Shown one piece after another: positions 1-51,706 of a DNA stretch of 64,000 nt (its first letter is position 1; each line of letters opens with the position of its first letter). Source of the DNA: Prostheceraeus crozeri (taxonomy: Eukaryota > Platyhelminthes > Polycladida > Euryleptidae); contig CAJQUW010014359.1 of NCBI GenBank assembly GCA_907163375.1, positions 620,001-684,000 on the forward strand, read 5' to 3'. Made by a program: the position numbers and the translations under genes. The notes under the pieces were generated by a model. It was not told where the DNA came from, ran no database searches, and worked only from the letters and a program-made list of their open reading frames with translations.

Positions 1-968
1 GGTCAAAGCGATTATCCCTATAAATCATATTTCAATCATGTATCACAGTTTCATCCAGCAGCACAAAAAAGTCATATGGAAGCCATGGGATGGTACAGAG
101 ATGAAGCAGGAAAATTTGATGTTGAAACAAACAGTGGCTTTGTAAAGCGATCTGCTATGATTAAAGATAGTAGAGTATGTCAGCTATATGGTCCGCTGAA
201 TTTAGACTTCTTTAGACAGTCAAAGTTTTTACTCTGTAATACCAGCATGCGACTCAAGCTGACATTGAATAAGCCTGAATTTGCGCTGAATGCATTTGCT
301 AAAGTTGACAATTTTAGAATTCATGTGGAAGATATTGCACTTTACATTCGTCGAGTAGTACCGAATCCAAGTGTCATTAGAGGGCATGCTGAAGGCCTTA
401 ACCGCCAAAATGCCATTTACCCCGTTCAGCATACAAAGCTTCTCACCTTTACAATTCCGAAAGATCAAAAGAGTTTCATGAAAGATGGCCTCTTTCCATC
501 GGAAGCACGAAGCTCCTCATGGTGGCAATGGTTGAAAATGATGCATTTAATGGTAATATAAAGAAGAATCCTTTCAATTTTAAACACAATCAGTTAAGTG
601 AAATTGCTTTACGTGTAAATGGTGTGAGTCATCCTGGTCCACCCTACAAACCAGATTTTGCTTCGGATCAATTTATGCGCAGTTATGTTGATTTTATGGA
701 TGTCTTTGGCTTTTACAATACGGATGACACCAACGGACTGACTATGAAAGAGTTTAAGAGTGGATATACTATTTATGCATTTGATTTGACTGCTGACAGC
801 GATATTAGTGCACCCTATCGTCAAGCGAACGTGCCTCATAATATTCGTTTGGATTTGACGTTCAAAAGAACACTACCTGAGACGATCAATGTATTAATTT
901 ATGCAGTCTTCGATTCAAATATTGAAATTACAAAGTATCGTGACGTGATTCTTCAGTATAATCGTTAA
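1..968 (+). pseudogene. Hexon-like major capsid protein of a Maverick/Polinton element, 5'-cut and frameshifted
   Basis: The reading frame is already open at base 1 and continues to 561 in one frame; the rest of the protein is read in a second frame from about 501 to 968. The two parts match consecutive parts of the family annotated in invertebrate genomes as F54H12.2-like, which I take to be the double-jelly-roll (hexon-like) major capsid protein of Polintons and adintoviruses. Landmarks are AGKFDVET and GPLNLDFF in the first part, and NDAFNG, KNPFNF and GYTIYAFDLT in the second. The shift near 500-515 fits loss of one base. I see no slippery heptamer, so I read it as decay rather than programmed frameshifting. 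The N terminus lies left of the window. The stop codon overlaps the start of the protease gene (TAATG). The family match is firm; the hexon assignment is from memory of the family. Confidence 0.72.
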
Positions 969-1429
969 TGAGTTGGTTGACTGCTGACGATATTAAGACT
1001 AAAGTGCAGCGTAATGCAGACGAAGCGACGTTGAAAGCTTTCGATAATGTCTATTCACTCGATACCTTACCACCTGCAGTAAATCACTATCCCATCTTTA
1101 TTGTGCTAAACACTCATTCTCAGAATTTAGGCGGTGAGCATTGGAAAGCGATCTTTATTGGAGAAGACCGACGTGGTGAACTATTTGACTCTCTTGCTCA
1201 ACCTCCAAATATACCAACACAGCAGTGGTTGAGAAAACATACGCGTCAATATCAGCGAAATGAACGCATACTACAACATCCACTTTCATCAACGTGTGCT
1301 GCTTTTGTACTGTACTTCATCTTAAGACGTTTACATGTATCTCGATTTGCATCTGTTATTCAAAACTTTTCATGTAATCCATCCTCTAATGAAAAAATGA
1401 TTTGTAAGTTCTATCATGATTTGAAATAA
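968..1429 (+). CDS. Adenain-type maturation cysteine protease
   Basis: This 153-residue protein has the layout of the adenovirus/Polinton capsid-maturation protease. Visible elements are His58 in GGEHWKAIFI, Asp74 in GELFDSLAQPP, and Gln103 followed six residues later by Cys110 in LQHPLSSTCAAF, the Gln-x6-Cys oxyanion-hole and nucleophile spacing of adenain. In the family it cleaves capsid precursors during virion maturation. The frame is intact with all catalytic residues present. The start codon overlaps the capsid stop codon by one base, so the two genes form a tight late-type unit. The stop codon overlaps a poly(A) signal (AATAAA, 1425-1430). A general Ulp1-like protease is the alternative, but neighbours and length favour adenain. 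Confidence 0.85.
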   Translation: MSWLTADDIKTKVQRNADEATLKAFDNVYSLDTLPPAVNHYPIFIVLNTHSQNLGGEHWKAIFIGEDRRGELFDSLAQPPNIPTQQWLRKHTRQYQRNERILQHPLSSTCAAFVLYFILRRLHVSRFASVIQNFSCNPSSNEKMICKFYHDLK

Positions 1430-1460
1430 AAACATCATGTTGGAAAAATTGTTTTTTATT
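1425..1460. terminator. Overlapping convergent poly(A) signals built on the two stop codons
   Basis: On the plus strand AATAAA at 1425-1430 contains the protease stop TAA (1427-1429). On the minus strand AATAAA (plus-strand TTTATT, 1455-1460) contains the stop TAA of the TBP-like gene (1456-1458). Only 26 bases separate the two stops. Both genes end Lys-stop (AAA TAA), which creates the signal. Confidence 0.6.
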
Positions 1461-2001
1461 TTACAATCCGCTGGGTACGTACATACTCAATGAGATAGTC
1501 TAGGATCACATTTGCTTGTACATGAGATTTTAGTCCAGTAATGATCACTTTACTATTATGAAAGATTGCCACATGCACAGGTAACCAACAACTAATGAGA
1601 GCTGCAGGAAAAAGTTCGGGTTCATAACACAAACTGTAACTGCTGGTACGAATCTTCAAAAATGATACACTTTCACTCAATTGAGTAGAGATCACCATAT
1701 TGTCCACAGTCAGATTCGACATCACACACCTCTCCCTCTTCCATATCCGACGTAGTAGTCTTTGTAGCTCTAAGCGCATTGACTGCGCCGATGAATGAGA
1801 AAGGGCGCCGAGAATCTGTACAGTCCCATTTGGGAAGAGTTGAAGATTCCGTGAATTGTTCATCTTCACCACTAACATTTGAGGACGGCCCGGGTAATAC
1901 TTGCTGTTTGGAAGCTGTTGGTGTAATGTTGTGAGATCGATTTTGGTGTAGAGTCTGAAGCGACGGAGAATGTTGACGATGGTGTAGCGATGGCGCTTCA
2001 T
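1456..2001 (-). CDS. TATA-binding-protein-like protein (two-repeat TBP core)
   Basis: Starting at the ATG at 1999-2001, this 181-residue protein is the size of a TBP core (about 180 residues) and shows its internal symmetry. Repeat 1 (about residues 8-85) has IVNILRRFRLYTKIDLTTL, then LQLFPNGTVQILGA, matching the TBP pattern of LIFxSGKxxxTGA. Repeat 2 (about 98-176) has NMVISTQL, then CYEPELFP, then VAIFHNSKVIITGLKS; YEPELFP is the classic TBP second-repeat signature. Of the four DNA-intercalating Phe positions of TBP, three are kept (F56, F131, F147) and the fourth, in the strand at residue 40, is Pro. The frame could extend upstream to 2145, but that part only overlaps the neighbouring gene and adds nothing TBP-like. 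A TATAAAAGG lies 34-42 bases upstream of the ATG. Likely role (inferred): promoter recognition for the element's own genes. A captured host TBP fragment is unlikely, given divergence and lack of introns. Confidence 0.8.
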   Translation of the reverse strand: MKRHRYTIVNILRRFRLYTKIDLTTLHQQLPNSKYYPGRPQMLVVKMNNSRNLQLFPNGTVQILGALSHSSAQSMRLELQRLLRRIWKRERCVMSNLTVDNMVISTQLSESVSFLKIRTSSYSLCYEPELFPAALISCWLPVHVAIFHNSKVIITGLKSHVQANVILDYLIEYVRTQRIVK

Positions 2002-2323
2002 GATGAAAGAATGAGTAAATTGAGCGATGTACCTTCCTTTTATACTTTTCCCAACTACCTTGATGAAATGTGAAGTTAGTATGAAGTTGGGAATGATAGA
2101 GTTGAATTCGCCGATTGTTGACGCGCAGCCAGATGCGATTTCCAATACGTGAATGTCTTTTCATATAGAAGTATTTCAAGTCCTTCATGATATGATGTAG
2201 AGATTGAAAATGACGATAAGATAAAGCAAACTCTCTTCTCACATTTCCAGTTGAATCTTTGAAATAGACGTTTCGATCATGATCCGTTTCAATACGTTGT
2301 AGGGAATCTAATTTCCAACTCAT
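1673..2323 (-). CDS. Small basic protein with acidic tail, possibly PC4-like; overlaps the TBP-like gene
   Basis: This protein has 216 residues. The N-terminal ~110 residues (WKLDSLQRIETDHDRNVYF, GNRIWLRVNNRRIQLYH, WEKYKRKVHRSIYSF) are paralogous to the next gene (2346-2702). They suggest two beta-rich modules each followed by a helix, reminiscent of ssDNA-binding PC4/p15 or Whirly-like folds. That fold call is a guess from pattern, not a recognised match. Residues about 110-216 form a low-complexity tail ending in an acidic stretch (DMEEGEVCDVESDCG). The tail is encoded by the same DNA as the first half of the TBP-like gene in another frame (overlap 1673-2001). The minus-strand order is this family twice, then the TBP-like gene. 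The protein family is unnamed to me; the ORF itself is convincing because of its paralog. Confidence 0.6.
   Translation of the reverse strand: MSWKLDSLQRIETDHDRNVYFKDSTGNVRREFALSYRHFQSLHHIMKDLKYFYMKRHSRIGNRIWLRVNNRRIQLYHSQLHTNFTFHQGSWEKYKRKVHRSIYSFFHHEAPSLHHRQHSPSLQTLHQNRSHNITPTASKQQVLPGPSSNVSGEDEQFTESSTLPKWDCTDSRRPFSFIGAVNALRATKTTTSDMEEGEVCDVESDCGQYGDLYSIE
2035..2043 (-). promoter_or_regulatory. Candidate TATA box for the TBP-like gene
   Basis: Reading minus strand, TATAAAAGG lies about 34-42 bases before the ATG at 2001. It sits inside the coding sequence of the upstream gene, where it encodes part of KYKRK, so it may be a coding coincidence. The paralogous position in the next gene reads TATAGAAG. 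Confidence 0.4.
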
Positions 2324-2345: not shown

Positions 2346-2702
2346 TTAAGATTTGCATAGTAGGGCGATGAACTCACGACGAATAAATGTCATGATGGAG
2401 CGATGTATATATCTTCTATACTTCTCCCAATTGTATTTGCAAAATGAGAAACAGTTTGCGGAATGAGAATGGTAGATTTGAATTTCATTTCTGTAATGTT
2501 GAAGCCAAACTTGATCACCCAAGGAGATGAATCTTAATGTTTCAAAATATTCCAAATCCCTCATGATATCATTGAGGTTGACAAATTGTCGCCATGTTAA
2601 TGTAATTCCTCTTGATGTATGACCATGAGAATTTTTGAAATGTACGTTTCCATCACGATCAACTCTGATATATTGTAGAGAGTCCAAAATCCAAGTCTTC
2701 AT
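2346..2702 (-). CDS. Small protein paralogous to the 1673-2323 gene, possibly PC4-like
   Basis: From the ATG at 2702 (MKTWILDSLQYIRVDRDGN) this is 119 residues; an ATG 12 bases upstream would add MHNI. It aligns along its length with the first 110 residues of its neighbour: LDSLQ, a D-x-D-x-N-V-x-F-K core, SLGDQVWLQHY, WEKYRRYIHRSIMTF. It lacks the acidic tail. Tandem paralogs in opposite orientation to the flanking late genes suggest an early or regulatory unit with the TBP-like gene. Its start codon and that of the plus-strand structural gene (2738) are divided by only 35 bases, so the two must share promoter DNA or use sequences within each other. Function unknown; ssDNA or nucleic-acid binding is inference. 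Confidence 0.6.
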   Translation of the reverse strand: MKTWILDSLQYIRVDRDGNVHFKNSHGHTSRGITLTWRQFVNLNDIMRDLEYFETLRFISLGDQVWLQHYRNEIQIYHSHSANCFSFCKYNWEKYRRYIHRSIMTFIRREFIALLCKS

Positions 2703-2737
2703 GATGTTATGCAAAGTTGCAGATTAGCAATATAAAA

Positions 2738-4135
2738 ATGTCGTTTTATCATATTTTGCTTAGCAATGCGGCTACAAAGAGATTTACTAGTAATCGAGCT
2801 GCACTCTTTTCTACTCCCATTGATCATGCACAACAGCTAAATGGAAATTGGGAAGTGGGTGTCACTCAACTTGTTTATAGCAACTGTGTCTATACTTTTG
2901 ATCATGAGGTGATGACTATTAATATGAGGCGTACAGCTGCTTATCAATGTGAAAAGGGGTGCCGAGTATACATTCCACAGTGGCCAAAGAAAGATCTCTT
3001 ATCATGTAAAAAGTTTATATATGATTTCTTGAATAAAGCGTGTAAACATATTGTCCAATTTACTCCGCACAATGATGATTATAATTATGTACATCATGTA
3101 GTTGAGAAAGATTGGATTGTTGGTTTAAGTCCAAGTTTAAGAAATGATTTAGGCTACCTCGCTAGCGCCTTGACAAGCTATGATAATTTTAACGTTAATT
3201 ACCACATAAGTGGCCATAAACAGTTAATATATCGAGAGGAAGCTTATTATGTAGATCTTATTCCAAGAAATGAGAAGACGTTGGTGAAGAAGATTGTGAT
3301 TAAGCCAAGAAAGACAAACATGACTCCTGAAACATTATTGAAGAAATTTAATTATCTCCTTCGAGTTGATGGCAAGCAAGTGGCAACATTGACTTATATT
3401 AAATCATCTAATCATATTGCAATAAGTAAATTAAATGATGATGATCTAGTATTAGTTTGTTCAAAAGATTTTCATCAGTTCTTACGACATCGTTCTGCAG
3501 CTGTTCATGGAAAATCTGATATGCAACATTTACCATGTGAAAGGTCAAATCAATTTGATACAGAATGGACCGTATCTTTATACAGAAAGTGTGTAGAGCC
3601 TTTAGGTGGTATCTTACATGAAACAAGAGTGTTGATACCTCGCATTATTACTTCGGTTAAATTGGTTGTAGATTATTTAAATGAAGTGACTAATGAGCAA
3701 CATATTTCATTTTCTGAAAAAGAAGGTACTTTGTCTCTCACTATAAGTGGAAAAGGTATTGAACTAATTATGGATAAAACTCTAATGGACATTTTGGGTT
3801 TTGATCAAAATATCTTTAAAAGTGGTACTGTAACCAAAGCTAGCGCAGACATGTCGCTATCGCGTCCTATTAACTATTTTCAGATATATTCCAATATTGG
3901 TGAAGATGTACGTGTGGGAGATGTTGAAGCTCCATTGCTAGCAATGATACCATACCAGCCAAAAAGCTGCAGTATTTTATCTGAGCATACTTTCAAGAAA
4001 GTGCATTATACAAAGCTGAAATCAAACTACATCCCACAAATTGATATTGCCATTTATGACGATGCTGGTGCGTTGATTCCTTTTCATAAAGATGCTGTGA
4101 CAAGTATCACACTCCATTTCCGAATGAAGAGTTAA
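2738..4135 (+). CDS. Late structural-type protein of Maverick/Polinton elements, copy 1
   Basis: The predicted protein has 465 residues from MSFYHILLSNAATKRF. The ORF could start 21 bases earlier, but the MSFY start matches the family's N terminus. It belongs to the family starting (I/F)Y-x-x-L-x-SNA-(S/A)-x-x-x-F, then N-G-x-WEVG, which I recognise as recurring beside capsid and protease genes in invertebrate Polinton/adintovirus elements. I do not know its exact role; a virion or fibre-like role is inferred from neighbours. Visible here are SNAATKRF, LNGNWEVGVTQLVYSN, and a C-terminal beta-rich segment ending VTSITLHFRMKS. The frame is intact. It is followed by its paralog after about 40 bases, same strand, with no poly(A) signal between them, so a shared transcript is likely. 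Confidence 0.65.
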   Translation: MSFYHILLSNAATKRFTSNRAALFSTPIDHAQQLNGNWEVGVTQLVYSNCVYTFDHEVMTINMRRTAAYQCEKGCRVYIPQWPKKDLLSCKKFIYDFLNKACKHIVQFTPHNDDYNYVHHVVEKDWIVGLSPSLRNDLGYLASALTSYDNFNVNYHISGHKQLIYREEAYYVDLIPRNEKTLVKKIVIKPRKTNMTPETLLKKFNYLLRVDGKQVATLTYIKSSNHIAISKLNDDDLVLVCSKDFHQFLRHRSAAVHGKSDMQHLPCERSNQFDTEWTVSLYRKCVEPLGGILHETRVLIPRIITSVKLVVDYLNEVTNEQHISFSEKEGTLSLTISGKGIELIMDKTLMDILGFDQNIFKSGTVTKASADMSLSRPINYFQIYSNIGEDVRVGDVEAPLLAMIPYQPKSCSILSEHTFKKVHYTKLKSNYIPQIDIAIYDDAGALIPFHKDAVTSITLHFRMKS

Positions 4136-4174
4136 TGCAAACGTATGCTAATATATTTTTCCAATGTGAATAAT

Positions 4175-5695
4175 ATGGAAAGTGAAAATAAGGACTCGTT
4201 TCTAATCTACTTGCCCAGTAATGCTTCTATGAATAAATTTCCCAAAAATAAACCATCAGACTATCGAGTAGAATTAAATCGGCCACTGCATTTAGAAGGT
4301 GAATGGGAGGTTGGCGTTTCTAGTATTTGCTATGATAGCAATATTCAGAATGTGAATGATTTGGAAGAAATGATATTGACTCCTCGCACCCATGATGGAA
4401 TAACGATGAATAATGCATTTCAGTTCCCATACAATTTAACGTCAGATGGAAAGTGGAACTATGAATGGATTCAGATAAAATCAGATTCTTATGAGCCATT
4501 TGGGAATGAGAAAATTATTAAGGCATTCAGCAGTGGTAATACTTCCATCATGAAGAATAAAAATCAGAAAGCTTATGAGTTTACTATCTATCATTGGAGT
4601 GGGAGACAGTTCCTCCGCTTTCATTCTTTTACTAAAGGTCTTACGCTGAGGTTGGATAGTGAATTCTATCCACATCTTGGTTTTGGTCATGGACTACATC
4701 TAACGTCAATTGCTACTGCAAATGTTAAAAAAGTTTATTCAAATCGAATCAACAAATTTCATTATAGATTTAAAATATTTGATGAAGATGTTGTAGAATG
4801 CGAAGAACGCATCATTTTGAAAAAGCGTGGTGTTCAACCTTTATCACTTATTGAGTTAGTAAAACGATGGAATGAGACTGTGGGTAAGAAGTATGGAGAG
4901 AAAATTATGGCGGACAAAAATAAGTTGGTTATTCAGAAATATAATGACAAACTTACAGTTTATTTCTCTCCAACCTTGCGTCATTTTGTAAGACATTATA
5001 CGCCTATTATTGGAAGCGGTGTGGTGTATGCTTCTCATGAATATCACACTAAAGCTGATTCAGTTAATGATGAATGGTGGGTGGACATCTATGGCGATCG
5101 CATCAAGAAAATTTACCAGTCTTATGAAGAATCTAAAGTTGCTATCAATATAATGCCGCGTCTATATCATACAGTTGAAAGCTTCATTCATGTAGTAAAT
5201 CCTTATATACAACAGAAGTTGAAGCATGTGATGAAAAGTAAATATGATGCAAAGACACACCACATTTCGTTTTCAATTGAAAATCAACGCGTTGTTCTGA
5301 AACTGGGTGATGACATTCAATGTCAATTGAGTAAAAATTTGAAAAAACTCTTTGGCTTTTCAATGCTACAAACAGTGTTTGCTGCTGCGCATACGATTGG
5401 TATAGAAACACCAATGACACTTGATAAACATGAACAGCACCTTTACATTCAAAGTGATTTGATTTTACCTATTTCTGTTGGCGAGAAAAAAGAATACATT
5501 TTACGTGATTTCATTCATGATAAAGACGCTTCATATGGAATAGTCGAGAAGTTGTTTGAATCTATTTTCTATCATCCCGTCATCAAACAAACTATACCCT
5601 CTATTGCTATCAAAATTACCAATGGTTTACAAGAGTGCATCCACGTGAAAGATACTAAATCCCTCGTAACTTTAGTGTTTCGGAAAACAAAGTGA
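4175..5695 (+). CDS. Late structural-type protein of Maverick/Polinton elements, copy 2
   Basis: This protein has 506 residues from MESENKDSFLIYLPSNASM; a start 30 bases upstream (4145) is possible but adds residues outside the family pattern. It is clearly paralogous to the preceding gene: PSNASMNKFPKN, LHLEGEWEVGVSSICYDSN near the N terminus, a middle DEWWVDIYGD paralleling DTEWTVSLYRK, and a matching hydrophobic end, SLVTLVFRKTK. Divergence is high, so the duplication is old. The frame is intact, and AATAAA follows at 5719-5724. Function unknown; a virion protein is inferred from family context. Confidence 0.65.
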   Translation: MESENKDSFLIYLPSNASMNKFPKNKPSDYRVELNRPLHLEGEWEVGVSSICYDSNIQNVNDLEEMILTPRTHDGITMNNAFQFPYNLTSDGKWNYEWIQIKSDSYEPFGNEKIIKAFSSGNTSIMKNKNQKAYEFTIYHWSGRQFLRFHSFTKGLTLRLDSEFYPHLGFGHGLHLTSIATANVKKVYSNRINKFHYRFKIFDEDVVECEERIILKKRGVQPLSLIELVKRWNETVGKKYGEKIMADKNKLVIQKYNDKLTVYFSPTLRHFVRHYTPIIGSGVVYASHEYHTKADSVNDEWWVDIYGDRIKKIYQSYEESKVAINIMPRLYHTVESFIHVVNPYIQQKLKHVMKSKYDAKTHHISFSIENQRVVLKLGDDIQCQLSKNLKKLFGFSMLQTVFAAAHTIGIETPMTLDKHEQHLYIQSDLILPISVGEKKEYILRDFIHDKDASYGIVEKLFESIFYHPVIKQTIPSIAIKITNGLQECIHVKDTKSLVTLVFRKTK

Positions 5696-5873: not shown

Positions 5874-8800
5874 TTATGTCAATACATCTCCTGAATGTGG
5901 TAGCGTGAGTTTTATTCTTTTGGGTGGAGGTATGTTTGTATCAGGATGTCCATGTGGAAGATATGTGTTATGTCCTATCCAACACCTCTTATCCTCCCAT
6001 GCTGAAAGTGCTCGTTTCTTGAACGTGTACGTTTTCACAGTATGAACTTGAGATTTTAAGATTGTCATATTGACAAACGTTATAGTTTTATTTTTATAGG
6101 CCTTCTTATAGGACCGATGTTTCATTTTATGAACAATGGATTTTGATATACCTTTAGCACGCTTAATACTATCTGCACATTCTTTTAGTTTCATGGAATA
6201 CATTTTAGGACGGAGGAGAATCATTTCATCTATTTCCTTTCCTGCTGTTTCATCCTTAAAACAACCAAGTTTGGCTTTATTCTGTATGGAATAGAGTGGA
6301 TGAGTGGGATTGTAGTTAGATGTGTCGAAATATTTTTCTAATGACTTGCCTACTTCATTAAAATTTAAATCTTTTTGAGTGGTAATTCCTAAAGAGAAAC
6401 TATCTGTATCACCACCCAGCAAGCGAACCTCTTTTACGAGAGGGCATGGTTTTAATATTTTGTAGAAGAGTTGATACATTTCAAGCTTGGAATAATCTAA
6501 AACGGCTTGCCCAATATAGATGGGTTTGCACAACTCAACTTCTGATTTAATCATTTTAACACCTACAAGATCCTCATCGATGATGTCTCTATCAATGAAA
6601 AGAGGTGATGAGGTCAATTTGTGATATTTTTGTTCATCAACGACTAGTTTGTAATTCATACGTTTTCTAACATCCTCCATGGTCTTTCCGAATAGACTGT
6701 TATTCTTATATTTATAAAAATCCTTTTCAAAATTATTTTGGGCGAGTGCACGTTTTTGACTGTTACTATCTATGTAGGGTTTGAGGAAGGCTTTCTGTCT
6801 AAATTTGATAATGCGGTGAACTGACTTTAGAAGCATGCCCATTTCTAAATAGAATTTTAATATGCAGAAGTGTACGAGATAATTTTTCTTATCATATTGG
6901 GTGAGTAAAAGTTTGCGGCATGGTTTGTACCTTGGCTGTCCACACTCTGTTAAGTTATTATGAAATTGTGACATGAATGGTGAAAACATATCTTCAGTCA
7001 CTTCGCCAGATTCAGGTGCAAGTGGGAAATCAGCAGTTTTATTTTTAATACTATTTGGATAAATCAAATCCACTTCAAAATAATATCCCCAATCACCTTC
7101 ATCTGGAATCTTCAGTATGTTTGAAGGGTTGGAGTAATACTCAAGCTCATTTTGATTTAACCAACTAAACTCGGAATGAGGTAGTGGTTTAGACAGTGAA
7201 CTGCCATATAAATTATTTTGGTCATAGTACTTTAGGTGGATATGATCATCACCTACTGTTTCAGATTTTATATGATGTTTATTTACAAATGTGAGACCAC
7301 CGCGTATTCCGCGCTCAAATATATTATACATCTCCGGGTCTTGTAAGAGATGAATGGTCTCACCAGTCATTTTAAAGGCTGATTTAAAGGACATGGCTGG
7401 TAGACTGACAAAGTGGACAGGATCTAATTTGTCTTCTTCTAATGCCACTCGTCGAAACTCCTGAAAGACATCAGCCAGCAAAATGACATCTAATTCTAAG
7501 TAAGCGATCATATAATCGCCAAACGTTTTACAATCAAATTTTAACCATGCCTCTTGAGCATGTTCATAGTCCTCTACTGGACAATCTTCACCCGTCAAAT
7601 CGTTTTTGAATTTGTCAATGGAAGGAAGGGTTGTTTCATTTAGTTTAGACATTGAGCTAAAATACGCATAAGGAAAGACTCCTTTGCGAGTGATTATTTC
7701 ATCCGTTAAGTTTGGATAGTGTTTCTTCAAAGTTTGACTATGGGGAAGAAACTTGAGATTACGAACGAGAGAAGCTAGTGACGCTGACATGAATTGAAAT
7801 GAATCTAAAAATTTTATTTCGAAGAAGACTGTCTTATTTTCTTTAGTTTTATCTACTGGTACTTTTGCTGTCATTGCCATGAATTTTTCTCTCGTTTGTG
7901 CTATTACATTAAACTGCCACGATTTCATCTGGCTCAACCCTCCTTTTATGAGCATATGACTGTCATAGCCCTTAAAGTTATGAAATATTACGGGTAGTAC
8001 ACGACGTCTCAACCTAAGTGAAAAGTTACATTTGGAGCAGAGTGCGTTTCTAAATTTACCAGTGATGTGATCATGATCACGCACTTTCTTAATTTTATCG
8101 TCAGCAAACGTTTTATGACATTTAGGACAGGATGTGCAACTTTCAAATTTTTGTTTGTCTTCATCTGACATATGTAGTGACTTACGCTGCAATTGGGAAT
8201 CATATGATTGTTGAAATTTAGCAGCTTTATCGAGAAATTCTAGAAATTTTGAAATGCAATCTTCACCTTGCCAAGTATGCATTTTGTTTTGTCTATTCCT
8301 AAAGTGGTCATGCCATACTTCATAGCAGGATATGGCTGCTGGCTTGTGGATGATATCATCAATGTAGCATTCTATGTCTGCGTAAATGACACGCAGGGGA
8401 TTTAATTCGTCACCATTATCCCTATGTGAAAATATTTTATCTTTGGGCATGCGTTCCATTTGTAATTTACCTCGCTTGCACCATTCATAGTGAGTTTCAA
8501 ATTTATCTTTACTCCAAAAGGAGCGGATGCAGCGGTCGCATACAAAATGTTCACCTCTTTTAGAGTGCCCCAAGTGAGTGTACAAGCGAGAGATTTTGGG
8601 AATACCACAGTAGTGCCATTCCTCGCTATCATCTTGTTTTACTAATAAGAGGTTGACTACACGTTCATAACAAGTTGAACGTGAATTATAGCGGGCACCC
8701 TTCAACCCCTTCTCCCACACGTGAACGACAATTTTAATCTTATTATGTTTTTCGAACGTTTCTACATCTTTGATTTTCATGTTGTTACTATCACAACCTT

Positions 8801-9692
8801 CAAAGTCTAGTTCATCCTCCCACTGTCTATAGCTATAGGTGCGATCTCGATGCGCGTTGATATCATTATAGTGAAGGATGGATAGGACTGCATACTTGAA
8901 ACACTGTGATTTACAATCAACATTGATGACAGCTTTCTTATTATACAACGTTTTTGGTAGTTTAAATGTGCCTCGAGCTGCATGACTTTCTAATAGGGAA
9001 ATTTTGAATATGGCTGAGTCCACACCATCAAAAATGAGAGCGCTGTCGCGTTGATTGAATTTATCTACATTTGATTTTAAACATTGAATGTGAAAATTTA
9101 GCCAAGACTCGCAGTCTACAACTTCGGTTGCGGAAGAGGAAGGAACATGAAACTGTATTCTCTCCGTCACTTGACCCGTTTGAAAATCTATTTTAATATA
9201 TTTTAGTTTAAGGTAGATGAGCGCCTTCATTCTAAAATTGTCTAAATTGTTGAAGAGCGCTTCGATAATGTTTGAATTTTGAAGGAGCCACTCAGGAAAA
9301 TCTACTATTTGAGTATTGGACTCCATGCAGTAGTCGCGTACTAAATTATTATGGGAAACATTAATGAGGGAGATGGTAGAGGTACCGTTGGTGTAGTGAT
9401 CATTTGCATGCGTGTGTTGAAGTCTGTGCGAAGATCGCTGAAAGTGACTATCAAAAGAAAGAGGGCACAAATCGCAAGGAAAGGAGATGTCATCGTCAGA
9501 ATCAACTTCACCTCCGGAGATTGACGCCGCTTTGCGTTGACACACACGTTGTTTGATGTGTCGAAGGAGACTGTGCTTCCTTGTAAACATATGTCCGCAG
9601 TCGGCACATTCCCACTCGTTGCCTTGTCGCGAGAGTCCTGAGCTGGAACTCACATCACCTGAAAGAGAAATCATTCTATCATCTCTGTTCAA
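5874..9692 (-). CDS. PolB: Protein-primed family B DNA polymerase with zinc fingers
   Basis: This is an intact 1272-residue polymerase of the Polinton/adintovirus pPolB type. Two C2H2 fingers lie at about residues 29-50 and 73-95, and a third Cys/His cluster at about 385-405. The exonuclease motifs are Exo I YADIE (437), Exo II HNFKGYDSH (571) and Exo III YLELDVILLAD (731). Between Exo I and II sits a Cys4 plus RDHDHITGKFR segment (about 519-555), the zinc/HNH-like insertion common in this group. Polymerase motifs are A YYDQNNLYGSS (822), B KYKNNSLFGKTM (995) and C LGGDTDSFS (1092). All catalytic residues look present and there are no stops over 3.8 kb. In the family it replicates the linear element genome using a terminal protein. 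It faces the structural genes tail to tail. The start at 9692 keeps the whole first finger; internal ATGs would cut it. Confidence 0.93.
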   Translation of the reverse strand: MNRDDRMISLSGDVSSSSGLSRQGNEWECADCGHMFTRKHSLLRHIKQRVCQRKAASISGGEVDSDDDISFPCDLCPLSFDSHFQRSSHRLQHTHANDHYTNGTSTISLINVSHNNLVRDYCMESNTQIVDFPEWLLQNSNIIEALFNNLDNFRMKALIYLKLKYIKIDFQTGQVTERIQFHVPSSSATEVVDCESWLNFHIQCLKSNVDKFNQRDSALIFDGVDSAIFKISLLESHAARGTFKLPKTLYNKKAVINVDCKSQCFKYAVLSILHYNDINAHRDRTYSYRQWEDELDFEGCDSNNMKIKDVETFEKHNKIKIVVHVWEKGLKGARYNSRSTCYERVVNLLLVKQDDSEEWHYCGIPKISRLYTHLGHSKRGEHFVCDRCIRSFWSKDKFETHYEWCKRGKLQMERMPKDKIFSHRDNGDELNPLRVIYADIECYIDDIIHKPAAISCYEVWHDHFRNRQNKMHTWQGEDCISKFLEFLDKAAKFQQSYDSQLQRKSLHMSDEDKQKFESCTSCPKCHKTFADDKIKKVRDHDHITGKFRNALCSKCNFSLRLRRRVLPVIFHNFKGYDSHMLIKGGLSQMKSWQFNVIAQTREKFMAMTAKVPVDKTKENKTVFFEIKFLDSFQFMSASLASLVRNLKFLPHSQTLKKHYPNLTDEIITRKGVFPYAYFSSMSKLNETTLPSIDKFKNDLTGEDCPVEDYEHAQEAWLKFDCKTFGDYMIAYLELDVILLADVFQEFRRVALEEDKLDPVHFVSLPAMSFKSAFKMTGETIHLLQDPEMYNIFERGIRGGLTFVNKHHIKSETVGDDHIHLKYYDQNNLYGSSLSKPLPHSEFSWLNQNELEYYSNPSNILKIPDEGDWGYYFEVDLIYPNSIKNKTADFPLAPESGEVTEDMFSPFMSQFHNNLTECGQPRYKPCRKLLLTQYDKKNYLVHFCILKFYLEMGMLLKSVHRIIKFRQKAFLKPYIDSNSQKRALAQNNFEKDFYKYKNNSLFGKTMEDVRKRMNYKLVVDEQKYHKLTSSPLFIDRDIIDEDLVGVKMIKSEVELCKPIYIGQAVLDYSKLEMYQLFYKILKPCPLVKEVRLLGGDTDSFSLGITTQKDLNFNEVGKSLEKYFDTSNYNPTHPLYSIQNKAKLGCFKDETAGKEIDEMILLRPKMYSMKLKECADSIKRAKGISKSIVHKMKHRSYKKAYKNKTITFVNMTILKSQVHTVKTYTFKKRALSAWEDKRCWIGHNTYLPHGHPDTNIPPPKRIKLTLPHSGDVLT

Positions 9693-10141
9693 GTCTCAGT
9701 GTATTGTTACAACCTACTTTGACTCAACAACTCTAAACTTTCCTCGAGAAGGGAGGGTGTTGGTGATGAAGTTGATGCCTGAAATTGAGGAAGATGCTAT
9801 TAGCCACACGTTTGAGGGAGATGAGTGAAGAAATTTTCAACTTACCATTTCAACGAAATTATGTTTAAGCTTGATACTTCAACAAGATAGAGACTTCACT
9901 CAAATAATACGTCTCAAATTTGGAATTCACTTGTACGCCTCAAATAATAACAGAATTCGCTAGACAACCGTTCACTTATGCGTCTCAAAGACAGAGTGAA
10001 ATGACACGAATGTCACTTTGCTTATATACTTTCATTCTCTTCATTCATTGGATGTTCATTCTGATTGGCTGCTTGTGTATACTTAAGAATTAGAAAAATG
10101 TTAAAGTTATCATTATTCAAAGTCAGCATTTCAAAGACAAC
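9693..10141. promoter_or_regulatory. Divergent intergenic region with repeated CGYCTCAAA motifs
   Basis: The DNA between the polymerase and the small acidic gene carries three related copies of a motif close to TTCACTTRTRCGYCTCAAA, near 9893, 9930 and 9968, about 37-38 bases apart. A TATA-like TTATATAC (10022) and TGTATACTTAAG (about 10073) lie before the ATG at 10142. It probably drives both divergent genes; which box is used is unknown. Confidence 0.45.
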
Positions 10142-10579
10142 ATGACAAGTCCTCCAACAACACCAAATACCGCATTGGAGTTCTCCTCTCCATGTACATC
10201 AGCAAAGGTGCTCGTTACACCAAATGCACCAAGAAAGGCGAAGGTGGAGAAGACATACAATCTCGACAATATACGAAAGTTATCATTATCGGAGGAGGAT
10301 GAAGAGGAGTTGCCCGACCTAACAGGCATACGGTGGAAATATTTACAATATGATGCCGAAGGGGTGATGGAGATGACCAGCAAGTCGCACTTGCATCAAA
10401 TATGGGAGTGGTACACCCCTAACTCCCAACCGCGAACCGTGGCGGAGTGGGCGTACATTGAGAAAGTGAGGGACGCTGCAGAAGAACGTTTAAAGCAGCT
10501 CAACTGTTTTTGTGATCTATGTGAAGCCAGACTCTGGGACGATATTGACGATGAAGACCTTTTGAAATACATGCCATAA
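10142..10579 (+). CDS. Small acidic protein of unknown function
   Basis: This protein has 145 residues. The N-terminal ~45 residues are Pro/Thr/Ser-rich and basic (TPNAPRKAKVEK). They are followed by an acidic stretch LSLSEEDEEELPDL, a Trp-rich middle (IRWKYLQYD, IWEWYTPN) and a C-terminal Cys cluster CFCDLCEARLWDD with an acidic end. I do not recognise the family. It has a virus-style context: divergent from the polymerase, a TATA-like box upstream, and the stop codon running into a poly(A) signal (TAATAAA, 10577-10583). The size and charge pattern would suit an early regulatory protein, but that is only inference. Confidence 0.6.
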   Translation: MTSPPTTPNTALEFSSPCTSAKVLVTPNAPRKAKVEKTYNLDNIRKLSLSEEDEEELPDLTGIRWKYLQYDAEGVMEMTSKSHLHQIWEWYTPNSQPRTVAEWAYIEKVRDAAEERLKQLNCFCDLCEARLWDDIDDEDLLKYMP

Positions 10580-10626
10580 TAAATGTTTATTTCGTATTAT
10601 CTTTGCTTTCATACTGACTTACTTGA

Positions 10627-11244
10627 ATGGGGTTTTAGTGAATAATTTAACCATGTATACTTTTTCATTTGGAAATAGTAGCACGCTTAGTTTAACTTGC
10701 AAATCTTATAACATTTCATATGGGTGATAATGGTAGATGAAATAGTGTCAAATAAAATTAAGATAGCTTACACTTCTGATACAGGGATAGCAATCGACTG
10801 CGATCCATGTGTAAAGAGCTTGTTAGACTACGGATGGGCTTAAGTGGATGATTTAACCATGTATACTTTTTCATTTGGAAATAGTAGCACGCTTAGTCTA
10901 ACTTGTAAATCTTAAAACATTTCATATGGACGATGATGGTAGATGAAATAGTGTCAAATGAATTAAGATAGCTTACACTTCTGATACAGGGATAGCAATC
11001 GACTGCGATCCATGTGTAAAGAGCTTGTTAGACTACGGATGGGCTTAAGTGGATGATTTAACCATGTATACTTTTTCATTTGGAAATAGTAGCACGCTTA
11101 GTCTAACTTGTAAATCTTAAAACATTTCATATGGACGATGATGGTAGATGAAATAGTGTCAAATAAATTAAGATAGCTTACACTTCTGATACAGGGATAG
11201 CAATCGACTGCGATCCATGTGTAAAGAGCTTGTTAGACTACGGA
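10627..11244. repeat. Three tandem copies of a ~206-bp repeat
   Basis: The unit recurs at 206 and 205 bp (anchor CCATGTATAC at 10651, 10857, 11062) and is nearly identical between copies 2 and 3. Each ends with an imperfect hairpin: TTACAC and GTGTAA arms enclose CAGGGATAGCAATCGACTGC. That 20-mer occurs a fourth time at about 12,083. There are no ORFs. Position beside the polymerase end of the element suggests a regulatory or replication role, not shown. Confidence 0.75.
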
Positions 11245-12821: not shown

Positions 12822-14000
12822 TTAGTCATCCTTTGGTAGTCTCGCGCGTTTCCGAATCGAAAATTTGTGTAGATGGCCGCGCATTCTCAGGCTGGCATGG
12901 AGACACTTTTTCGTGGGATGACCATTGTAACATAGGATGGACTCGTCGAGACTTTGATTGACGAGTACTTCGCCGGCCAAATGATTATCCCGAATAGGGA
13001 TGTGAAACTCAAACAAACGATCCTCATTCACACGTTCCCACTCATCCCTCATGCGCTCCAACTTCTCATACGCCTGCCTCTCATCACCCCGCCGAGCCAC
13101 AGTCCTCTCCAACTCAACATTCCTCGCTCTCAACACACTCATCTCCTTCATCATCTCCTCAAACTTCGCCTCTGCATCTCTCATTCTTCTCTCCGCAGCA
13201 CTCGCCCTCTTCTCACACTCATCATTCTTCTCTTCCAACTCTCGCGTCTTATTCTTCAAATCAGTCACACAACGCCTCATTCTAATGTTTTCATCCGCCA
13301 CCTCCTTCGACTTCAGTTCCTTCTTTTTTAACTCATCCAACTCCTTCACAACTTCATCCTTCACTTTCTTCAAACTCTCATACTTATTCACCAACAAATC
13401 ATGCGCCATCTGCTGCGAAACATGCCTCTTCTCTTCATCCTTCAACCACCTCGCCGACTGCACACGAATCCCACCACTCTTCACTTTTGGGGAAGATGAG
13501 CTCTTCGGGGGGTCGGTGATGACGATGTTTGACACCTCCGATGACGAAGAGCTCAACTTCCTCACACGCTTCCTCACACGCTCCCTATCTAAATCCACAT
13601 CATCCTCATCATCACTCTCAAGCACTCTCTTTCGCCCAATCTCACCCTCCAACGACGCAACCGCTCTCGCCAACTCATCATTCTCAACAACATTCTCAAC
13701 AACATTCTCAACCTTACCCTCTCGCTCGATCGCCAACATTCGCTCCCTCTCTTCCACAATCAACTGCGTAAATCTCAAATCACTCACTAAACCACCACTA
13801 CAGTCAGCATGCACTCTGTAGAAACGCGCCTCATCCTCATCACCCTTCAGCACTCTACACTTCACGCACGCAACCCTATTCAAGATAATCATGTGGCCGG
13901 TGCCCGCCTTCTTCACATGCGCCTTGGCGTCCGCACTGCGATTTATACGACCGCACACACACATTTTGATATGATACTTTCTGTTTCTATCGTTTGCCAT
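12822..14000 (-). CDS. Cys-cluster plus coiled-coil protein, unknown function
   Basis: From the ATG at 14000 (MANDRNRKYHIKMCVCGR) this is 392 residues; an upstream in-frame ATG at 14054 is possible. The N-terminal ~70 residues hold a likely zinc site (CVCGR, later CVKCR, then a lone Cys after ADC). A charged region with ESDDEDDVDLD, the basic run RVRKRVRKL (likely nuclear signal) and a Ser tract follow. A long coiled coil (about residues 205-330, heptad-rich E/K/R/L) comes next, then a short basic C terminus. I do not know the family. It is intact and is the last gene before satellite DNA. Inference: a DNA- or chromatin-associated accessory protein of the virus-like element, or a host gene abutting it. 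Confidence 0.55.
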   Translation of the reverse strand: MANDRNRKYHIKMCVCGRINRSADAKAHVKKAGTGHMIILNRVACVKCRVLKGDEDEARFYRVHADCSGGLVSDLRFTQLIVEERERMLAIEREGKVENVVENVVENDELARAVASLEGEIGRKRVLESDDEDDVDLDRERVRKRVRKLSSSSSEVSNIVITDPPKSSSSPKVKSGGIRVQSARWLKDEEKRHVSQQMAHDLLVNKYESLKKVKDEVVKELDELKKKELKSKEVADENIRMRRCVTDLKNKTRELEEKNDECEKRASAAERRMRDAEAKFEEMMKEMSVLRARNVELERTVARRGDERQAYEKLERMRDEWERVNEDRLFEFHIPIRDNHLAGEVLVNQSLDESILCYNGHPTKKCLHASLRMRGHLHKFSIRKRARLPKDD

Positions 14001-14825
14001 GCCTGATTTATCGTTAGCTGTAAGATAATGAAATTTGTATAAGTTTGGAATCATGTAGTACAGTCATATTCCTAAAGAGTGTAGTGAGTGGCACTCGATC
14101 CCGTCGACAGCCCGAAGGCCTTGTACTGATCACTAGGAAAGTGAGAGATCTTCCCCGATACCCGCTCTTTACAGCTGAAGACATCATTGTCACTGCCCCG
14201 AAGTGGTAACAGGAACGCCGAGTCAAAGGTAGTGATCAGTAGCTGGGATCTAACCCCTCAAAGCTGCCTTAGACTTAGTTAAATTTCAAATCTGATAGCA
14301 TATTTGAACTCAGGATACTTGAAAACCTTAGTCTATATGATAAAACTTTGAAAAAAGTGAAAATTAAGAATTTTTAAAAAATTCCGCATTTTACTACTCA
14401 TACTACTTTTAAAAAATTTTATCAGTAGTAAAGACACTATCAAAATCTATCATACAAACTTTGAAGTAAGAAGATAGCTTGCCTACTTCAAAAGATAGAG
14501 TCCTTTGAAACACCCGATATCGGGAGCTCAGAGCGACGACCGTCGCTTGCCTCGTCTTTCGATGAAGTGATCAGACTTACGTTGTCGGGGGTTTATATAT
14601 GCTCGGAAGAAAACTTAAAATGGCTCTATCTCCGAAAGTATTCATCGTAGCGACATGCGGTTTGTTGCAAACGATTCGTCTCATCATTCTTTACAATATG
14701 ACACCTGAACCATTCTCATATGACCACGGGAAGTTGGTCCGTCAGCACATGTCCATGTAACATGCCACAAGTGAAAAAATTCCTAAGTGTGAGAGCTCCA
14801 GTGTGGTGAAAATTTTGAAAAATTT
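14001..14825. other. No gene seen; possible right edge of the virus-like element
   Basis: No coding region is visible. A 12-bp inverted pair (TACTGATCACTA near 14116, its complement near 14230) is the only clear structure. The element's terminal inverted repeat cannot be identified because its left end is outside the window. Confidence 0.4.
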
Positions 14826-14945
14826 AAAACTTCCGAATTTCGACCTGGAACCTTTACCAAAACATTTTTCATCAAATTTCACTGACCCCCCCCTCCCCCC
14901 CTCATTCAGAGAAATTTGATGAAAAATGTTTTGGTGACGGTCCCA
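14826..14945. repeat. Foldback of satellite sequence
   Basis: About 45 bases (ending ATTTTTCATCAAATTTCACT, then C-runs) are the reverse complement of the satellite sequence that follows at 14910-14945. This makes a long inverted repeat around a C-rich centre. It marks the left edge of the satellite array. Confidence 0.65.
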
Positions 14946-16930
14946 GGTCGAAATTCCACACTTTGGAAAATTTTCAAAATTTTACCCATACAAAGTCACT
15001 CTGACACTTAGGATTTTTTCAGGTGAGCGAGCTCCGACCTAAAATCTTAAATGGCGTCTCACATCTAAACGAAGACAGATAGGAACAAGCCGATTCTTTC
15101 ACTGAATTTGTCTCACTCTTAGCTTTCAAACGAGCTATTGCACGACAAAATCCGTCCACTGGAACCAAAGTTAGAAGATTGTTGTCGGGGGGGGGGAGGT
15201 CAGTGAAATTTGATGAAAAATGTTTTGGTGACGGTCCCAGGTCGAAATTCCACACTTTGGAAAATTTTCAAAATTTTACCCATACAAAGCCACTCTGACA
15301 CTCAGGATTTTTTCAGGTGAGCGAGCTCCGACCTAAAATCTTGTAACCGCTCTAACTTTTGAACGGCTGGTCCGATTGACTCGCAACAAAAAATGTTGTC
15401 GAGCAGTTTTTTCTCCTCTTTCAAACGAGTAGCTGTAAGACAAAATCCGTCCACTAGAACCAAAGTTAGAAGATTGCTGTCGGGGGGGGGGTCAGTGAAA
15501 TTTGATGAAAAATGTTTTGGTGACGGTCCCAGGTCGAAATTCCACACTTTGGAAAATTTTCAAAATTTTACCCATACAAAGTCACTCTGACACTTAGGAT
15601 TTTTTCAGGTGAGCGAGCTCCGACCTAAAATCTTAAATGGCGTCTCACATCTAAACGAAGACAGATAGGAACAAGCCGATTCTTTCACTGAATTTGTCTC
15701 ACTCTTAGCTTTCAAACGAGCTATCGCACGACAAAATCCGTCCACTAGAACCAAAGTTAGAAGATTGCGGGTGGGAGGGAAGGTCAGTGAAATTTGATGA
15801 AAAATGTTTTGGTGACGGTCCCAGGTCGAAATTCCACACTTTGGAAAATTTTCAAAATTTTACCCATACAAAGCCACTCTGACACTCAGGATTTTTTCAG
15901 GTGAGCGAGCTCCGACCTAAAATCTTGTAACCGCTCTAACTTTTGAACGGCTGGTCCGATTGACTCGCAACAAAAAATGTTGTCGAGCAGTTTTTTCTCC
16001 TCTTTCAAACGAGTAGCTGTAAGACAAAATCCGTCCACTAGAACCAAAGTTAGAAGATTGCTGTCGGGGGGGGGGTCAGTGAAATTTGATGAAAAATGTT
16101 TTGGTGACGGTCCCAGGTCGAAATTCCACACTTTGGAAAATTTTCAAAATTTTACCCATACAAAGCCACTCTGACACTTAGGATTTTTTCAGGTGAGCGA
16201 GCTCCGACCTAAAATCTTGTAACCGCTCTAACTTTTGAACGGCTGGTCCGATTGACTCGCAACAAAAAATGTTGTCGAGCAGTTTTTTCTCCTCTTTCAA
16301 ACGAGTAGCTGTAAGACAAAATCCGTCCACTAGAACCAAAGTTAGAAGATTGCTGTCGGGGGGGGGGGGGTCAGTGAAATTTGATGAAAAATGTTTTGGT
16401 GGCGGTCCCAGGTCGAAATTCCACACTTTGGAAAATTTTCAAAATTTTACCCATACAAAGCCACTCTGACACTTAGGATTTTTTCAGGTGAGCGAGCTCC
16501 GACCTAAAATCTTGTAACCGCTCTAACTTTTGAACGGCTGGTCCGATTGACTCGCAACAAAAAATGTTGTCGAGCAGTTTTTTCTCCTCTTTCAAACGAG
16601 TAGCTGTAAGACAAAATCCGTCCACTAGAACCAAAGTTAGAAGATTGCTGTCGGGGGGGGGTCAGTGAAATTTGATGAAAAATGTTTTGGTGGCGGTCCC
16701 AGGTCGAAATTCCACACTTTGGAAAATTTTCAAAATTTTACCCATACAAAGCCACTCTGACACTTAGGATTTTTTCAGGTGAGCGAGCTCCGACCTAAAA
16801 TCTTGTAACCGCTCTAACTTTTGAACGAAGACAGATAGGAACAAGCCGATTGTTTCACTGAATTTGTCTCACTCTTAGCTTTCAAACGAGCTATCGCACG
16901 ACAAAATCCGTCCACTGGAAGCCAAAATCG
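14939..16930. repeat. Satellite array, ~292-bp units with poly-G runs
   Basis: The anchor GGTCCCAGGTCGAAATTCC occurs at 14939, 15233, 15525, 15817, 16109, 16404 and 16695, so units are 291-295 bp. Two unit types share the first ~125 bp but differ in the rest. Type A has TCTAAACGAAGACAGATAGG; type B has CTAACTTTTGAACGGCTGG. The order is A, B, A, B, B, B, then a B-to-A hybrid that ends the array. Nearly every unit ends in a 9-13 base G run followed by GTCAG. Short ORFs in both strands are by-products of the repeat and not genes. Confidence 0.9.
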
Positions 16931-17590
16931 AAGCAAGCTGTCCAGGGGGGGGGGACGTCAGCCGAAAACTTTTTCTCTCCGATTGACTTGAAACTCACCC
17001 TACCGATGCAGAATTTCACGCTGAATCCGAATCTGACCTCCATTTTCTCATCCGATGCTTCGTTTGGACGCTACACACCAAAACGTCCCAAATTCTAACT
17101 CTGTCGTTTTTCGAAAAATGTTGAAAATTTTTTCTCACCGATTGACTTGAAACTCACCCTACCGATGCAGAATTTCACGCTGAATACGAATCCGACCTCC
17201 GTTTTCTCATCCGACCACTCCTTCCACTCGAAACAACCCATTTTACAACCCAACATTCAGCAGATTGCACCAAAAACATCACACACTATAGCCTCAAGAC
17301 TAATCCTGGCGGTCGCCCACGTCAACCTAGACGGTCGCCCACGTCAACCAGGCGGTCGGACCAACTCACCCGAGTCTCACACTCTGTCGTTGCAGGGGGG
17401 GGGAGTCAGCGAACATGTTGTGAACGTGGACCCACCTGGCCGGCACACCACGACAGACCACAACCTCTGTCGTTCCAGAGGGGGGGGGACTCAGACACGA
17501 AGCACCACGGCGGCCGACCACGACACTCTGCCGTACCAGAGGGGGGGGGACGTCAGCGATGGCGGCCATCTTGCGCGGTCCAGAAGTGGA
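16931..17590. repeat. GC-rich patchwork with poly-G junctions
   Basis: A ~75-bp segment with ACTCACCCTACCGATGCAGA occurs twice (about 16975 and 17132). Downstream, short segments end in the same junction as the satellite: a run of 9-10 G, then A, then (G)TCAG, at 16945, 17395, 17480 and 17541. The sequence is open on the plus strand by chance and joins the LINE fragment that follows. Confidence 0.6.
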
Positions 17591-18062
17591 GTTTTGCTTA
17601 CTACTGCGATTATCTCATCTGTGTTAACGTATGCTGCTCCCATTTTTTGTCACCGAACTCAAAGTGTACAATCTAAGATTCGTCGCATTACGAAACGCGC
17701 TCAGCATATTATCTGCGGATTCAAATGTAAGTGTAACATAGTGTGCGATATTGATGACCTGTTCAGCAAGGTAATTTTTTCTTTTTTGCTGAAATGTGAA
17801 AACCCACTTCATCCTTTGAGAGAAATTGTTCCTCGTCGTCTACATTTTTCAAGACACTTTGCAATAGACGCTTTTCGCACCGCTAGAACAAACAACGCAT
17901 TTTTTATAAAAGCTTGTCTTGACTTCAATATGTCCTTCCAACGCTGAGATTGAACTCTTGAGTAACTGCAACTTTATTTGTATGTAAATGTCACACTTTA
18001 CTCTCCGTTATTTTGTATTAGCATTTGTATTGAATGATTTTTATTTTTCATGAAATATATAC
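17590..18062 (+). pseudogene. 3' end of a LINE reverse-transcriptase ORF plus 3' UTR
   Basis: The end of the ORF (to 17947) reads TAIISSVLTYAAPIFCHRT, then RRITKRAQHIICGFKCK and NPLHPLREIVPRRLHFSRH. This is the C-terminal tail typical of CR1/Jockey-type non-LTR reverse transcriptases, after the catalytic domain. The catalytic part is absent, so this is a 5'-truncated copy. Its ORF reads back into unrelated GC-rich repeat DNA by chance. About 115 bases of 3' UTR follow, then a CTA microsatellite tail. Confidence 0.65.
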
Positions 18063-50671: not shown

Positions 50672-51706
50672 ATGGCGACGCGTGAATTGAGCGAAGAAAA
50701 GCGGTGGCGTATTGTCACACTCAGTATTGATGCTAAGTGGTCTTACAATCGAATCGCCAGTCATTTGAATGTTCCAAAATCAACCGTTAGGTATCAAATT
50801 AAACGGTATAGGGAGACACATTCAGTGAAAGACAGAAACAGATCCGGCAGACCTTCAGTTCTTGCTGAAGACTCCTATTCTTTCATTACTTCCACAGCTG
50901 AAGCAAATCCGTTTGTAAGCATTCCAGAATTACAGAGACTTCTTCGTGAGAGGAATGTTCGAGTGTCCCAGTCATCAATAAGTAGACGCCTACATGATGC
51001 TTGTCTTCACAGCTTTCGTCCTTTCAGATTTCTTCCACTTAGCGATAGTCATAAGCTTGCACGTTTGCAATGGGCACGACAGCATCGCTCATGGTCGGCA
51101 CTTCAAGAATGGCGTCAAGTAATTTTCACTGATGAAAGTGTTTTCTGTCTCCGTCGTACTGATGGTCGCTTGAGGGTTTGGAGAAAGAGAAATACTCGGT
51201 ACGCAAACTTCGATGCAGTACAGACCCAAGAGCGGCGAGGTTTTGGTAGTGGTTCAGTAATGGTCTGGGCAGCTATCGCCTGGAACGGCAAATCTGATCT
51301 TGTGATGCCAAACGGTTCTGTGAACGGTGAAAAGTACCGTGAGATTTTGACCACCGTTGGTATTCCTTTTGGACTCAGTGTTATAGGTCCAGGGTTCCTT
51401 CTACAGGACGATAATGCTCGACCCCATCGCTGCCGTCTTCTTGAGACACTCCACCTCGAGAATCATGACTACACTCACATGGAGTGGCCGAGTCGCAGTC
51501 CCGACCTCAATCCTATTGAACATGTGTGGGACGAGCTTGGTAGGCGAATCTCAAAGCGACAAATTCGAAATATTGCTGATCTGAAATCTGCTCTGAAAGA
51601 TGAATGGTGCAGTATTCCTCAGAACTCCATTCGTCGTATCATTCGTTCGATGCGTTCACGCTGCGACAGTGTGATCGCAGCTCAAGGCGGTGCCACTAGG
51701 TACTGA
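50672..51706 (+). CDS. Tc1-like transposase, intact
   Basis: This is a 344-residue transposase of normal Tc1 length with no breaks. The N-terminal paired-type helix-turn-helix (WSYNRIASHLNVPKSTVRYQ) is followed by GRPS and a second DNA-binding module (FVSIPELQRLLRERNVRVSQ). The catalytic triad is visible: D in VIFTDESVF, D in LLQDDNARPH, E in SPDLNPIEHVWDELG. I count 35 residues between the second Asp and the Glu, one more than the DD34E of classic Tc1. It cuts and pastes at TA. The right element end is probably the GACGGGCAG at 52014 followed by TA; inverted it reads CTGCCCGTCAAAAGTC. I could not find the matching left end, so the copy may be incomplete. It sits just after the transposase pseudogene. 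Confidence 0.9.
   Translation: MATRELSEEKRWRIVTLSIDAKWSYNRIASHLNVPKSTVRYQIKRYRETHSVKDRNRSGRPSVLAEDSYSFITSTAEANPFVSIPELQRLLRERNVRVSQSSISRRLHDACLHSFRPFRFLPLSDSHKLARLQWARQHRSWSALQEWRQVIFTDESVFCLRRTDGRLRVWRKRNTRYANFDAVQTQERRGFGSGSVMVWAAIAWNGKSDLVMPNGSVNGEKYREILTTVGIPFGLSVIGPGFLLQDDNARPHRCRLLETLHLENHDYTHMEWPSRSPDLNPIEHVWDELGRRISKRQIRNIADLKSALKDEWCSIPQNSIRRIIRSMRSRCDSVIAAQGGATRY

Follow-up and report, generated by a model that had tools for sequence, protein, structure and literature searches.

A TATA-binding-protein gene carried by Maverick/Polinton elements of a polyclad flatworm, and a candidate element-specific promoter box

The window analyzed here, a 64,000-nucleotide stretch of the 2.05-Gb genome of Prostheceraeus crozeri (contig CAJQUW010014359.1, positions 620,001–684,000), holds most of a 24,845-bp element copy, the remainder of which lies to the left (locus L029). 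Its right terminal inverted repeat (16794–17605; 815 bp, 96% identical to L029:261–1073) ends in ACTACT, and the left end of the element is AGTAGT. The hexamer GCGATT was found on both flanks (17606–17611, identical to L029:255–260) and represents a 6-bp target site duplication. L029 also encodes an integrase with a chromodomain (PF00665, E 1.2e-10; PF00385, E 6.1e-7; both above the cut-off). Vertebrate Mavericks are reported to have (AGT)2//(ACT)2 ends and 6-bp duplications (PMC8097293). By its ends and its integrase, the carrier is a Maverick/Polinton element, as the initial annotation had proposed.

To the left of the window, L029 contains the integrase gene, a core-like ORF (Adeno_PX, E 0.0024, below the cut-off), ATPase-like and minor virion-like ORFs, and the start of the capsid gene. 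The ATPase (P-loop), minor virion and capsid names are presumptive; the ATPase-like ORF in L029 has no Pfam match, and Pfam searches of the capsid and ATPase ORFs gave no matches for double jelly-roll capsid or packaging ATPase. In the window, the C-terminal part of the major capsid protein (1–968, plus strand), which we take to be F54H12.2-like, is spread over two frames (1–561 and 519–968) and is a single frame in other copies; the window copy of the element is probably not intact. An adenain-like cysteine protease follows (968–1429, plus strand; Peptidase_C48, 15.7 bits, E 0.013, below the cut-off of 20.7). Further along the plus strand are two probable virion proteins, ORF472 (2738–4135) and ORF516 (4145–5695), the N terminus of the latter resembling ORF472. 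A family B DNA polymerase, recognized from its motifs by eye, is encoded on the minus strand (5874–9692) with a zinc finger and an endonuclease-VII-like domain (Endonuclease_7, E 5.8e-7); the Pfam search gave no polymerase match for this ORF at E ≤ 1. It is 33% identical over 1112 amino acids to a polymerase-type ORF located beside an integrase-like ORF on an IMG/VR contig (L025, 17,398 bp), in which no TBP was detected. The right part of the element contains a 410-amino-acid ORF (12822–14054, minus strand) that appears coiled-coil-like by eye and has no Pfam match at E ≤ 0.01, as well as tandem arrays of ~292-bp and ~205-bp units at 14895–16950 and 10550–11244; the terminal repeats contain related short repeats. 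Outside the element, a Tc/mariner-type transposase ORF (HTH_Tnp_Tc3_2, DDE_3) was observed at 50672–51706 on the plus strand.

A gene for a TATA-binding protein (TBP) of 181 amino acids occupies exactly 1456–2001 on the minus strand, the plus strand of this interval containing many stops. The product matches Pfam PF00352 in two stretches (E 7.6e-20, 71 bits against a cut-off of 22.9) and also matches TBPs in PDB at the sequence level (best E 5.6e-12). Thus, the reading of this ORF as a TBP-like gene with both repeats is borne out, and the YEPELFP signature is present. Three of the four intercalating phenylalanines were said to be kept, and indeed they are (F56, F131 and F147), the first site being Pro40. 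Structure prediction, which had been suggested as a check, gave a two-fold TBP saddle: the AF2 model has a pLDDT of 94.7 and was aligned to TBPs by Foldseek and VIA-align, with Heterosigma akashiwo virus 01 providing the best named viral structure match. The proposed placement between adenain-type and capsid-type genes holds on one side, where the adenain-like ORF is the neighbor. The capsid gene is not a direct neighbor and sits past that ORF; on the other side of the TBP gene are two ORFs with a putative PUR fold, followed by a virion-type ORF.

Both PUR-fold ORFs are on the minus strand. PUR-fold a (2346–2702) encodes 118 amino acids. PUR-fold b (1673–2323) encodes 216 amino acids, is 43% identical to the PUR-fold a protein and has a basic, serine-rich tail that is similar in two other element families. 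In comparison with PUR-alpha proteins, the element ORFs show ~11% identity, and the two putative beta4-alpha PUR repeats would be contained in 118 amino acids. The tail of PUR-fold b lies in another frame of the TBP gene (1673–2001, minus strand), so that TBP codons 1–110, comprising the whole N-terminal repeat, are open in both. Codon permutation of the overlap in three families (one copy each) gave P-values of 5e-5, 3e-4 and 4e-4. The domain of a core transcription factor therefore shares its DNA with a second conserved frame.

We then analyzed the distribution of the TBP gene. The window family (F1) has at least 150 near-identical copies of it in the genome. All of the 150 scored matches, which were chosen by similarity to the window protein, are full length and free of stops (98–100% identity), and among 20 copies chosen through the adenain gene the TBP frame is unbroken in 18 and carries indels in 2. 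In all 30 fetched F1 loci, the TBP gene is accompanied by the adenain-like gene as well as by the PUR-fold ORF with which it overlaps; in 29 of them, ORF472 is also at its side. Homologs were also found in other records (61 at E ≤ 1e-3 among 94 candidates; longest contigs 24.7 kb). These homologs, the full-length copies and the unbroken frames in adenain-selected copies confirm that the ORF is real and not a chance reading frame. A profile search gave 1006 matches, 120 of which were listed; those beyond the 120 may include cellular TBPs.

A search of the genome with the Pfam TBP profile, in which the 150 best matches were scored and 30 loci fetched, yielded 4 host loci and 26 element loci (13 of F1, 9 of F2, 3 of F3 and 1 of F4); a few of the element TBPs in this search carry a stop. 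The gene is thus present in four diverged families of the same genome, and neither of the two outcomes that the initial annotation had named as refutations was obtained. F3 and F4 show the gene order capsid-adenain-TBP as well, and F3 relatives of other element genes were identified as well (66% identity for the ATPase, 50–64% for capsid pieces). In all 9 F2 loci, the TBP gene adjoins the end of the polymerase gene; the TBP-PUR pair is flanked there by this end on one side and on the other by a group of accessory ORFs related to ORF204, ORF176 and ORF136 of L029, and is not located at the adenain gene (L090, L077 and other loci; L124). The F4 copy (L123, 2338–2874) has a reverse-transcriptase-like ORF, identified by eye, within its integrase gene, probably a later insertion. 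The host has a TBP gene of its own on contig C9306, which is interrupted by an intron and encodes all four phenylalanines. A TRF2-like host gene was observed on C3829 (L073, L080); it was matched in two pieces, one with an internal stop. A FastTree phylogeny grouped 144 element TBPs in a single clade that was separated from host TBP and TRF with weak support (0.66).

Between families, the TBPs share 41–55% identity, with dN of 0.40–0.71 against dS of 1.2–2.7, near saturation. Among young F1 copies, the changes in TBP look neutral: shared changes comprise 0 synonymous and 5 nonsynonymous, and changes found singly 4 and 9, respectively, against a neutral expectation of ~23% synonymous.

To characterize the residues of the element TBPs, we used the same 144 sequences, chosen by similarity to the window family (141 found proteins including that of the window, plus F2, F3 and part of F4), and mapped positions to host TBP by sequence alignment, with what we take to be the corresponding yeast numbers. 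In the N-terminal repeat, the first intercalating phenylalanine (F99) is proline in 138 of 141 sequences (three gaps), the DNA-contacting V122 is glutamine in 143/144, and the contact residue T124 is leucine, methionine or phenylalanine in 144/144 (leucine in the window protein); proline and glutamine occur together at the first two positions in 137 of the 144. The other intercalating phenylalanines are kept (F116 in 144/144, F190 in 143/144, F207 in 143/143 with one gap), as are the DNA residues of the C-terminal repeat (asparagine at N159 and valine at V161, all 144). Two glutamates that contact TFIIB, human E284 and E286, are kept in 141/144 and 143/144, respectively. On the other hand, the basic positions of the N lobe are mostly lost (n = 65), with arginine at human R235 in 8 and arginine or lysine at R239 in 12, in a helix that aligns less surely. 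Both the glutamate contacts and the effect of changes at R235 and R239 are described in a previous study (PMC7221094), according to which ~40% of viral TBPs retain the first glutamate; a TFIIB-like protein, too, is present in almost all of these viruses. Scanning 20 ORFs of the element gave no match to the TFIIB family.

Two kinds of candidate promoter boxes were found. A canonical TATAAAAG box precedes the TBP ATG by 43–46 bases in F1, F2 and F3, at the same place; in the window it lies 43 nt upstream (2037–2044, minus strand). A TATATAAG box is located ~336 nt 5' of the polymerase ORF (10021–10028, minus strand). Between this box and the ORF, GTAAGT and TTTCAG (9692–10060, minus strand) might delimit a 5' intron. 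The second kind is (T)ATGCAAA, which lies 30–47 bases ahead of five virion-type genes in F1. Its longer form TATGCAAA occurs four times in the ~16 kb of F1 searched, in all four cases 30–47 bases ahead of a gene start and on the same strand. These sites precede the core and ATPase genes, ORF472 (2708–2715, plus strand, 30 nt upstream) and PUR-fold b (2352–2359, minus strand, 36 nt upstream and inside the end of PUR-fold a). The shorter ATGCAAA has 10 sites in F1, 6 of them before genes, adding the minor gene and ORF516 (4135–4141, plus strand, 40 nt upstream of the second methionine and 10 nt from the first).

The box was first noticed by eye and tested afterward; a 7-mer control, which allows for this in F1, showed that the commonest 7-mer of random intervals reached 5 occurrences in 3 of 2000 sets, ATGCAAA being present in 5 of 14 F1 upstream intervals. 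The core GCAA was found in 8 of 13 F1 intervals (-60 to -20; random mean 1.9, P-value = 5e-5) and 7 of 10 F3 intervals (random mean 1.5, P-value = 1e-4). For GCAAA, the strict part common to both families, the counts were 7 of 13 F1 intervals, a value reached in 0 of 20,000 random sets, and only 3 of 10 F3 intervals (P-value = 0.019). A sister family carries GCAA-type boxes (TAAGCAAA) at a spacing similar to that in F1, and the exact F1 motif ATGCAAA was not found ahead of F3 genes. The box is absent ahead of TBP and integrase in F1, and no clear box was found in F4. Ahead of ORF176, ORF230 and the capsid gene of F1, GCAA occurs only farther upstream, at -66 to -69; some of the F3 sites fall within the final coding part of the preceding gene, and one F1 box, that of PUR-fold b, is in coding sequence.

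The initial annotation suggested that such a TBP would let the element choose its own promoters. As judged from sequence, this is likely and is backed by the two-class promoter pattern. We somewhat favor the hypothesis that the element TBP binds the element-specific (T)ATGCAAA box; from this site, it is predicted to bring TFIIB and Pol II of the host to virion-type genes. Host TBP would first activate the genes with TATA boxes, those for the element TBP and the polymerase. The altered N-terminal repeat may then shift recognition to the GCAAA-type box, and host TFIIB could dock on the glutamate pair that the element TBP has kept, whereas loss of the basic surface of the N lobe might free the protein from regulators of host TBP. 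In this order of events, the element TBP would finally position TFIIB and Pol II of the host at the virion genes; its binding, the timing and the use of TFIIB are all putative steps. The full scheme has a chance that we put slightly short of even: a private late-promoter system, in which a small TBP, its DNA-recognition half encoded atop a PUR-fold tail, reads a GCAAA-type box (TATGCAAA, or TAAGCAAA in the sister family), passes the virion genes on to the TFIIB and Pol II of the host and escapes the regulators of host TBP.

Several other explanations were considered. The element TBP might read ordinary TATA boxes and simply raise or free the supply of TBP, for example if host TBP is limiting or regulated. 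The C-terminal repeat with its asparagine and phenylalanine contacts would allow this, as would the canonical TATA boxes at the element TBP and polymerase genes, but the changes in the N-terminal repeat are near-invariant, GCAA is enriched at -60 to -20 in F1, and among the virion genes a TATAAA is nearby only at ORF472, at -7; we regard this explanation as unlikely, yet worth keeping in mind. Somewhat less probable still is that a host factor, such as a C/EBP-like protein or one that recognizes the POU octamer, occupies the GCAAA box and that the element TBP acts elsewhere, for example in replication. Three of the six F1 sites before genes are ATGCAAAT, which we take to be that octamer; however, the other three and the F3 sites are not octamers, and the distance from box to ATG resembles that of the TATA box ahead of TBP.

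A decoy that titrates host TFIIB and thereby damps host transcription would account for the kept glutamate pair and the largely lost regulator surface of the N lobe. Such a protein would hardly need the DNA-contacting asparagine, valine and three phenylalanines, which are also kept, and the promoter pattern would be left unexplained, making this role very improbable. As for a host TBP captured by chance and lacking a function in the element, only the neutral-looking changes among young copies point that way; the divergence of four families with dN well below a nearly saturated dS, the 61 relatives elsewhere and the near-invariant motifs argue against it, and the conservation between families largely refutes it, leaving it scarcely credible. 

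Mavericks are regarded as a hub between transposons and viruses and the source of several groups of DNA viruses. We know of no account of how they activate their late genes, and none was found in the papers searched. The conserved TBP gene and the matched candidate boxes, early and late, open this activation to direct testing. Moreover, a TBP with its TFIIB dock retained and one half of its DNA face altered would constitute a naturally occurring, separate promoter system. If the proposed scheme is true, it would be, to our knowledge, smaller than any other self-encoded initiation system of virus type and the first to be carried by a transposon.

The element shares with known Maverick/Polinton elements (polintoviruses; adintoviruses) the terminal inverted repeats, AGTAGT/ACTACT ends, 6-bp target duplication and chromodomain integrase, together with capsid-, protease-, ATPase- and polymerase-like ORFs. 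It differs in the TBP gene, the PUR-fold pair and the overlapping gene, which are not described for them in the portions of the literature covered by our search. That search found no report of a TBP gene in Polinton, Maverick or adintovirus genomes or of their promoters, which does not prove absence from print, and term counts gave no TATA term in the main texts of five articles (PMC11071308, PMC10120064, PMC11071296, PMC10328495 and PMC8097293). An algal study mentions TBPs in its mirusvirus-like elements and not in its Polinton-like ones (PMC10675990). Cellular TBP and TRF2 have the same two-repeat saddle and C-lobe contacts, but canonical cellular TBP has four intercalating phenylalanines and the element TBP three. 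TBPs of giant viruses and other nucleocytoviruses share the fold, whereas most of these viruses are reported to have a TFIIB-like protein of their own and diverged glutamate positions (PMC7221094). A precedent is provided by the TBP mimics of beta- and gammaherpesviruses, in which a TBP fold encoded by the virus likewise goes together with the Pol II of the host and with late promoters of a non-TATA kind; one of them, KSHV ORF24, replaces TBP on TATTWAA late promoters (PMC12529657). ORF24 is reported to be larger, to have an extra DNA-binding domain and all four phenylalanines, and to lack the TFIIB glutamate pair (PMC12529657). The element TBP, in contrast, has 181 amino acids, has lost one phenylalanine and has kept the pair; since ORF24 lacks it, the element TBP would serve late promoters in a different way.
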